DNA of 56,650 bases from Nitrososphaeraceae archaeon (GTDB lineage Archaea; Thermoproteota; Nitrososphaeria; Nitrososphaerales; Nitrososphaeraceae). The stretch is taken from the NCBI GenBank assembly GCA_016782225.1, contig JADDOW010000054.1:1-56650 (forward strand). Direction: 5' to 3'. Numbering within the stretch: the first letter of the stretch is position 1; each line of letters begins with the position of its first letter. The notes under the pieces are model-generated. The model saw only the letters and a list, made by a program, of their open reading frames with translations. It was not told the origin of the DNA and did not search any database. The position numbers were made by a program, and so were the translations under genes. This document shows, in pieces, positions 25,693 through 28,700 of this stretch.

Positions 25693-26232
25693 CTAGTCCT
25701 TTACCCAAATTCCATGGTTTGTGTTTAGTAAAGCGTATTGCTGAGGGGTCATCTTTTTTATGTCATCCATTTTATAGGCACATATAGATAAAAAAAAAGA
25801 GAATTGTTTTTCCAATATTTCATCATATAGAATCAATGCATTTTCGAGACCCTCTATAAAAAACGCAGTAACATCTACAAATGCTCGAAGTCCCCTTTTA
25901 CCCCTTTTGGAGGCATTTGAAAAAGCAAACTCCCATTTTTTTAGAATTATATAAGTATTAAAGTCACCATCAGGGTAATACCATTCTTTTGGGGTCGTAA
26001 TTATAATGTCATCTTTTAGACCCTCGAAATCATTTACATTGCCAAAGTTCCATTTTTTTGCAATTCTTTTGATAATTTCATCTTTAGACAAAGAATCCAT
26101 CATTATAAAAAAAAATTCATTGTTATCAAAACCTGATTTAAGAAAAGAAAAGCAATCACGCAATTTAGCCTCTTCGTTAGAATACACCACAAACACATGG
26201 TCCCCCATTTCCAAAGAGCTAAGACAATTCAT
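25693..26232 (-). CDS. MEDS-domain protein (DcmR-like sensory domain)
   Basis: The 179-residue protein is one MEDS domain. It opens with GDHVFVVYSNEEAKLRDCFS and FLKSGFDNNEFFFIMMD, then DDIIITTPKEWYYPDG, and the core helix-strand ALRAF-like GLRAFVDVTAFFIEGLENAL, followed by LSICAYKMDDIKKMTPQQYA. This RecA/KaiC-like fold was described from methanogen and methylotroph signal proteins (DcmR) and is expanded in Nitrososphaeria, usually fused to or beside histidine kinases. Here it stands alone without a transmitter domain, so it may sense a hydrocarbon-derived ligand or act as a partner of a kinase elsewhere. It starts at ATG 26232. Confidence 0.85.
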   Translation of the reverse strand: MNCLSSLEMGDHVFVVYSNEEAKLRDCFSFLKSGFDNNEFFFIMMDSLSKDEIIKRIAKKWNFGNVNDFEGLKDDIIITTPKEWYYPDGDFNTYIILKKWEFAFSNASKRGKRGLRAFVDVTAFFIEGLENALILYDEILEKQFSFFLSICAYKMDDIKKMTPQQYALLNTNHGIWVKD

Positions 26233-26668: not shown

Positions 26669-26909
26669 TAGAAAAACAATACGTATATTAAAATATTAAA
26701 GTTTGCCATACTGTAAAAAATACGACTAAAACGAAATTTTTCAATAGTCATCTGGATTGTGTTTTTATTCATTAAAAGCATATGAATTACTGACAGATGC
26801 GATAAAGACAAACAAAAGGTGCCATAATGAATTAAAGCCTTTATGTAGAGAGGTATTGTTTTTCTTCCTCTTCCTCCTCTTCCTTCCCAACCATCCAATA
26901 AAAATTAGA

Positions 26910-28700
26910 ATGTCTAGTAACAGACAAAATTTGCCTGCTTGCCTACGCCATCTTAGAGGCGAAAGCCCTTATCCTAGTTGTATTGGTTCTTTGGTTTTTC
27001 GAAGGATGATATTAGGGCATTATAGAATACGAATGATGAAATCATTGCCCATCTACCGTATTGCAACATCAACTGACACGCGTTTTAATAACTATGAATT
27101 AGATGATTTGGCTAAAAGACTATTTGAAATAGGCAACTATTCTCTCCAGGAAACCAACGGACGCAGATTGCTCAGATCTTCAAATCATCTAATAGACGTT
27201 GATAACAAAAGTGGAGCAGTATGGGCAGCAGATCAAACATATCTATGGAATCCAAAACTATACCCACATCTACCAAACAAACAAAATGCAAGTAAAATAG
27301 CAGATGAGTTTATAATAAAAAACAACCTTCTTCCCCATGTAGAAGAAGACGACAACAACAACCTTTTTGCGATAGAGATGCTCGAACCTGCAGGTAGTTA
27401 CATATCGACTATGAACAGAATTAACGGTGAAAGAGAGGATCGGCAGCTTGACTTCAGGATACAGTATTCTTTTCAAATCATATTAGATGATGATCCAGAA
27501 AACGAAAGTGGTACGGCAGCAGACATCGCCGTTCCCATTATTGGCGCAGGTGCAAAGCTAGGCGTAACAATAGGAGATGAAGGAAAAATTATAGCATTTA
27601 ACAGCTCATGGCAACCGTTGGAATCCACAGAGACCAATGCAGACTATGTTCCAAGAGAAATAGCTGACACATACTTTAGAAAACTAACAGAAAAACTAAA
27701 CATAGAATCGTTTGATGCCACTCTGGCATACACTTTTACCCAATCATATCCAAACAAGCATCAACAACAGTATCTATATCCTGTGTGGACCTATAGAAGT
27801 ACTTGTAACATCGATAACCACAAGTTTCCACTGAGGATTATAACCATTCCTGCGACAGGGTTTGGTCCGACTCCCCGAAGCTATGAACCCCAACCTAGCC
27901 GTTCAAAGCAACACACACCATTGAATTGGAATTGGAAAACCGGAAAAAGAAGGGGGCTAATCTCCATCAACCCATATGAGGCAAGCATATCCTGGATAGG
28001 CCAAACTGGTGGCCTGAGTGGCAGCAGAAACAACGCTCAAGGAGTTGTGGATGAACTAAAAAACGCGGGATGGAACATAAACTTCAACTGGGGAGACTGT
28101 AACGCATGGGATACCGATTGGGCAGGAAATGACGATAATTATATTGATTCATCAGATTTTGTATTTTACACAGGCCATGCCGGTGTTGACGGATGGCAAC
28201 TTTTCAGTCACAATGATTGCAGCCCAAGATATTTAACACCAGTGACAACTGGGAACTCCCCTGAGGTATCCAATGATAGATGGGGAAAACAAGATTTAGA
28301 ATGGATAGTTATTGCCGCCAGCGGTCCATTGGAAGATGACATTTTAGCAAAGGATGGAGGAAACGCACTAAACCGCTGGGATGGTATATTTGACGGCTTA
28401 CACACATTGATGGGATATGGTGCAGTTACTTTTGACACTGAACATGAAGGGCAAAGAATTGTTCAGTATGCTCGAGAAGGTCAAACCCTAATAAACGCAT
28501 GGTTCCGCACTGCTCAAGAGATCCAACCTTCCAGTAATGGATGTAAAGCACCATATGGCCCCACCGTTTATGTTGGAGCGCTATGGGTAGGAAGTGAGGG
28601 GCAGCCAGATCCTTTTAATGATCATCTCTGGGGATATGGGTCAGTAGCGCCAGATCCGGTCGACCCAAGCTATACTACATGTATGTGGGTTCCATGCTAA
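26910..28700 (+). CDS. DUF6345-like protein with caspase-like strand-His / strand-(Cys to Ser) layout
   Basis: This is the longest gene of the window (596 aa). The start could also be one of the ATG codons at 27033/27036, which would give the more family-like N-terminus LPIYRIATSTDTR. The N-terminal half is alpha/beta with no membrane helix. The C-terminal half matches what I recall of DUF6345: GQTGGLSGSRNNAQGVVDEL, GWNINFNWGDCNAWDTDW, SSDFVFYTGHAGVDGW (His423), LEWIVIAASGPLEDD (Ser471) and LNRWDGIFDGLHTLMGYG. The two hydrophobic strands, one ending in Gly-His and one in Ala-Ala-Cys/Ser, mirror the His and Cys sites of clan CD (caspase/gingipain) peptidases. In the homologues I remember, position 471 is Cys; here it is Ser. 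It has no obvious signal peptide and stands alone. Confidence 0.75.
   Translation: MSSNRQNLPACLRHLRGESPYPSCIGSLVFRRMILGHYRIRMMKSLPIYRIATSTDTRFNNYELDDLAKRLFEIGNYSLQETNGRRLLRSSNHLIDVDNKSGAVWAADQTYLWNPKLYPHLPNKQNASKIADEFIIKNNLLPHVEEDDNNNLFAIEMLEPAGSYISTMNRINGEREDRQLDFRIQYSFQIILDDDPENESGTAADIAVPIIGAGAKLGVTIGDEGKIIAFNSSWQPLESTETNADYVPREIADTYFRKLTEKLNIESFDATLAYTFTQSYPNKHQQQYLYPVWTYRSTCNIDNHKFPLRIITIPATGFGPTPRSYEPQPSRSKQHTPLNWNWKTGKRRGLISINPYEASISWIGQTGGLSGSRNNAQGVVDELKNAGWNINFNWGDCNAWDTDWAGNDDNYIDSSDFVFYTGHAGVDGWQLFSHNDCSPRYLTPVTTGNSPEVSNDRWGKQDLEWIVIAASGPLEDDILAKDGGNALNRWDGIFDGLHTLMGYGAVTFDTEHEGQRIVQYAREGQTLINAWFRTAQEIQPSSNGCKAPYGPTVYVGALWVGSEGQPDPFNDHLWGYGSVAPDPVDPSYTTCMWVPC

Follow-up and report, generated by a model that had tools for sequence, protein, structure and literature searches.

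A 555-residue protein encoded in the window, a 56,650-nucleotide stretch from a soil archaeon of the Nitrososphaeraceae, belongs to the family DUF6345 and carries a Ser at the position where typical members have a Cys. On sequence evidence the family is probably kin to clan CD, and it is fairly likely both that DUF6345 constitutes a clan CD-type family of His-Cys peptidases and that selection has kept its archaeal member as a pseudopeptidase, with a peptide or protein as its binding partner. Proteolysis is predicted for DUF6345 proteins, the Cys-bearing members included, as are the fold, the loss of catalysis in the window protein, and its binding role. DUF6345 is an unstudied family with members in archaea, Bacteroidota and Deinococcus and in at least one phage, and it would thereby gain a testable assignment as a new clan CD peptidase family.

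The gene occupies positions 27033–28700 on the + strand, within an open frame (26757–28700, +) that amounts to 647 residues in full. The supported start is the ATG at 27033 or 27036. In L001, a 98% identical orthologue, the homologous MMKSLPIYR is immediately preceded by a stop codon, with further stops ahead of it; a comparison of the window with L001 shows 7.6% divergence and indels in the region before the gene, against 2.5% and zero indels within it; and the homologues from Dyadobacter begin at the position matching ATG 27033/27036. A start at ATG 26910 and the 647-residue frame were rejected in view of the upstream stops in L001 and the upstream indels. The preliminary description had counted from ATG 26910, and its His423 and Ser471 consequently become His382 (28176–28178, +), which follows FVFYTG and is the first residue of the dyad, and Ser430 (codon AGC, 28320–28322, +), at the nucleophile position. 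The motifs that it had reported are present in the translation, with FVFYTGH and WIVIAAS each hydrophobic and strand-like ahead of the His and the Ser, and 28176–28322 reading HAGVDGW...LEWIVIAAS within the frame 26757–28700. No signal peptide is evident from the sequence of the 555-residue protein.

The DUF6345 domain (PF19872) forms the C-terminal half of the 555-residue protein, at 27993–28685 (+; residues 413–643 of the 647-residue frame), and is matched in Pfam with an E-value of 5.6e-45 and a score of 153.9 bits, compared with a curated cut-off of 26.9, over profile positions 3–217 of 221. As the match covers the whole domain, membership stands even though the Cys is absent from the second site. 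The protein shares with the family the invariant His, a (D)LEW-type strand before the nucleophile and a conserved LH...G region after it, and differs from a typical member in having Ser in place of Cys at the nucleophile position. DUF6345 was the sole Pfam match to the domain, with none to PF00656 (C14) or PF12770 (CHAT), and searches of NCBIfam and of PDB sequences with the window protein gave no match. A literature search found no paper on DUF6345.

Across the family, the dyad site is strikingly uniform. An initial alignment of 23 members, in which the His was the sole invariant column, was extended by six more to 29, and all 29 have His at the first site; at the second, 26 carry Cys and the remaining three Ser, namely the window protein and its two same-genus orthologues (HC 26, HS 3). 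The preliminary description had given the second-site residue of the family as Cys, within IAAC, and this was correct, Ser being confined to this archaeal clade among the members sampled. Around the site, the window protein reads IAAS-GPL and its nearest Cys-bearing relatives, the Dyadobacter proteins (~45% identical), IAAC-GPL. The His motif, FVFYTGHAG, fits the pattern G/S-H-G/A after a hydrophobic strand. Directly after the His, the window protein, its orthologue L001 and the Dyadobacter proteins, which bear Cys, have Ala, whereas L002, the other archaeal orthologue, and most members have Gly. A Gly beside the catalytic His is structurally conserved across clan CD families (PMC4357240), and this Ala counts as evidence against a clan CD pseudopeptidase.

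A resemblance to clan CD had been suggested in the preliminary description from the arrangement of two strands followed by His and then Cys, and it is borne out by profile comparison, with the dyad in register, and by a protein that bridges CHAT and DUF6345. Gingipain (C25) and legumain (C13) likewise show the clan CD order, in which one strand leads into the His and a later one into the Cys (PMC4357240), and the caspase/haemoglobinase fold comprises a 2-1-3-4 parallel sheet with the dyad at the ends of strands 3 and 4. The likeness of DUF6345 to these two peptidases is one of residue order, and no DUF6345 member gave a Pfam match to either. The profile comparisons used hhalign and excluded the bridging protein L028; z values were derived from the scores against column-permuted profiles. 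DUF6345 aligned with C14, represented by Spirosomaceae orthocaspases, with a score of 30.7 (E 9e-4, z 7.3) over 103 columns that span the His-Gly motif through to the Ala-Cys motif, and with CHAT with a score of 26.9 (E 0.005, z 6.5) over 133 columns. In each alignment the His columns coincided and the nucleophile column of DUF6345 met the catalytic Cys of the other family. By comparison, the accepted clan-mates CHAT and C14 reached a z of 3.8 with each other, whereas unrelated controls were flat (DUF6345 against response regulators, z -0.3; against MEDS, z 0.2). Response regulators also scored with CHAT (z 4.2) and C14 (z 3.2), over 20–21 columns only; z values of 3.2–4.2 are therefore unspecific when taken alone, and the argument rests on the higher z, the long alignments and the register of the dyad. 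The HH-suite probabilities of these two DUF6345 comparisons were low, at 7% and 23%, because the alignments are shallow.

The bridging protein, encoded at L028:1267-2121 in a member of the Bacteroidota, matches CHAT (E 1.2e-9) and DUF6345 (E 1e-5, just below the cut-off) over overlapping residues, as well as the solved CHAT chain 8tl0_A (1.4e-7, phmmer). It can thus be regarded as a CHAT/DUF6345 intermediate that is useful for joining the two families. When it was included in the DUF6345 profile, 8tl0_A was also the best PDB match, at an E-value of 0.21 that is by itself non-significant. Profile A5 also hit designed ‘Pizza’ propellers among the PDB entries, an artefact that was discarded because it arose from summing many 7-bit repeats of a short motif around the His. 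CHAT (PF12770) includes an active peptidase, TPR-CHAT/Csx29, and its profile kinship with DUF6345 brings both His and Cys into register; the window protein differs from it in being without TPR repeats, in having a YcdB-like domain at the N-terminus instead, and in the Ser at the Cys position. AlphaFold models of the full-length protein and of the domain only, built from a five-row alignment that left out the phage protein L078 (which MAFFT had misplaced), reached pLDDT values of 30.6 and 29.7, owing to a lack of alignment depth. A fold search with such a model (pLDDT ~30) returned nothing meaningful; the models were unusable, and the proposed fold is consequently taken from sequence profiles.

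DUF6345 might instead comprise non-peptidases that employ the His-Cys pair for other chemistry or in a structural role, within an alpha/beta fold only partly like that of clan CD. This would suit proteins that are without known activity, models with a pLDDT of around 30 and modest profile probabilities, but it is unlikely: the residues conserved across this very divergent family are those that define clan CD, the register holds with two separate clan CD families while unrelated controls stay flat, and one protein bridges CHAT and DUF6345.

The Ser itself is genuine, as its codon is AGC in all three archaeal orthologues, one base away from TGC, and these come from three separately assembled genomes, one of them distant by ~0.85 synonymous changes per site; sequencing error is excluded on this basis. 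In a phylogenetic tree, the HS proteins group together as a clade of three (support 100/98), nested within a five-row group with the HC Dyadobacter proteins (support 99/97), such that the pattern is explained by a single Cys-to-Ser change along the archaeal branch. The dN/dS ratio is 0.12 between the window and L001, and 0.08 between the window and L002 (at dS 0.85), with similar values in both domains, and the three orthologues are of equal length with no indels. The surroundings of the locus keep the same order in all three genomes. A neighbouring gene with a MEDS domain (window 25693–26232) remains intact in two of the three, the window and the L002 genome; it is broken in L001, where the protein match crosses five stops and the DNA alignment shows indels. 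With low dN/dS and no indels in the Ser gene while its neighbour decayed, the Ser-form protein is, to judge from these sequences, maintained and functional after the Cys-to-Ser change. A pseudogene reading was dismissed, as the frame is under selection and three assemblies agree.

Clan CD enzymes rely on a His/Cys dyad (PMC4357240). The window protein retains the dyad His382 and the residues that flank the nucleophile, with the nucleophilic Cys itself replaced by Ser430, and since this Ser stands at the catalytic-Cys position the protein would be at most a pseudo-member of clan CD in catalytic terms. Formation of the acyl-enzyme is expected to be inefficient in a clan CD domain with Ser at the nucleophile; most likely, then, the domain binds rather than cuts, its former substrate groove holding a peptide or protein partner that is left uncut. 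The preliminary description had offered a choice between a Ser variant and a dead pseudoenzyme; of these the second fits best, in the form of a pseudoenzyme whose function is maintained.

That His382 and Ser430 form a working Ser-His dyad, making the protein a slow peptidase, esterase or acyltransferase, is quite unlikely. We know of no Ser-dependent clan CD peptidase. The His is nevertheless kept in the three orthologues, in IAA-x-GPL surroundings that are the same as those of the Cys relatives, the domain is under strong selection, and the nucleophile alone has changed, whereas the change most often seen in bacterial pseudo-orthocaspases affects the His as well and yields Tyr-Ser (PMC6426788). 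Against this, trypanosome metacaspases of the His-Ser and Tyr-Ser types are reported to lack proteolytic activity (PMC6426788).

Those metacaspases, together with the bacterial pseudo-orthocaspases, provide parallels to the maintained pseudopeptidase favoured here, having lost the Cys to Ser and being considered proteolytically inactive yet functional (PMC6426788). The C14 orthocaspases and metacaspases are thus both profile kin of DUF6345 and subject, in their pseudo-variants, to the same loss of the nucleophile to Ser. The window protein differs from them in having no C14 sequence, in being archaeal, and in keeping the His where the commonest pseudo-orthocaspases have Tyr-Ser. In an earlier survey, all 93 archaeal caspase homologues kept the His-Cys dyad, with no archaeal pseudo-variants (PMC6426788), whereas the window protein would represent a natural archaeal Cys-to-Ser pseudo-variant of clan CD. 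As the Dyadobacter (Cys) and archaeal (Ser) proteins are ~45% identical, the pair permits a direct before/after comparison.

Alignment columns reveal five further cysteines shared by the three Ser-clade archaea and missing from both Dyadobacter homologues: Cys258 (codon 27804–27806), Cys356 (28098–28100), Cys396 (28218–28220), Cys504 (28542–28544) and Cys550 (28680–28682), all on the + strand. The sole Cys lost in the archaeal proteins relative to Dyadobacter is the nucleophile. It could be supposed that the domain was repurposed, gaining five cysteines and shedding its reactive thiol so as to work by disulfides, a metal site or a moved nucleophile, and the nucleophile alone going the opposite way would agree with this; it is, however, very improbable, with no signal peptide evident, no recognisable metal motif, and a comparison of two lineages only, which says little on the order or independence of the gains. 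An archaeal clan CD-type domain that either uses a Ser-His dyad or has shifted its nucleophile onto one of these five cysteines seems rather improbable; if true, a Ser-dependent member would be the first known in the clan.

The N-terminal accessory domain (27033–27950, +; ~300 residues) gave no match in a Pfam search, and is related to the C-terminal domain of other DUF6345 proteins. Its profile scored 40.3 against the C-terminal domain of the Spirosomaceae and phage proteins, compared with 24.7 for the best of 100 column permutations. Two members of this C-terminal domain in the relatives match DUF4901 (YcdB/YcdC repeat) weakly, and the N-terminal domain of one relative gave a weak match (E 0.058) to FTP, a thermolysin propeptide motif. 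The accessory domain can thus precede or follow the peptidase-like domain, an arrangement in keeping with a role as partner or pro-domain, and this is probably what the N-terminal domain of the window protein is.

DUF6345 is rare and patchy in its distribution. Within the archaeal phylum it was matched in four of 300 genomes, one of them (L008) being spurious, as it had no convincing frame, and within the phylum of the Dyadobacter relatives in ten of 296; it is also found on one Deinococcus plasmid and one phage contig. Three of the 15 genomes of the window's genus carry it, every one in the Ser form, and among the 70 genomes of the window's family there is one further match beyond the genus, a distant one; the window's own genome has a single copy. 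The record for L002 is titled Nitrosopumilus sp. (MGR_bin428), probably a misnomer, because a genome search places this genome in the window's genus. A different type of DUF6345 protein, with His and Cys intact, is encoded at L016:36-1577 (G335), in the same family as the window's genome. The closest relatives outside the archaeal genus are the two Dyadobacter proteins, at 41–44% identity by tblastn and 45–47% in the alignment, which suggests transfer between the Bacteroidota and this archaeal lineage, in either direction. No relatives were found in the phage collection, and most IMG/VR searches were likewise empty. The phage-contig protein (L078:2962-4263; IMG/VR 3300014208_000171) is of the Cys form with a C-terminal YcdB-like domain, and its gene is flanked by a tail-type gene and by a lysozyme gene that probably belongs to a lysis cassette.
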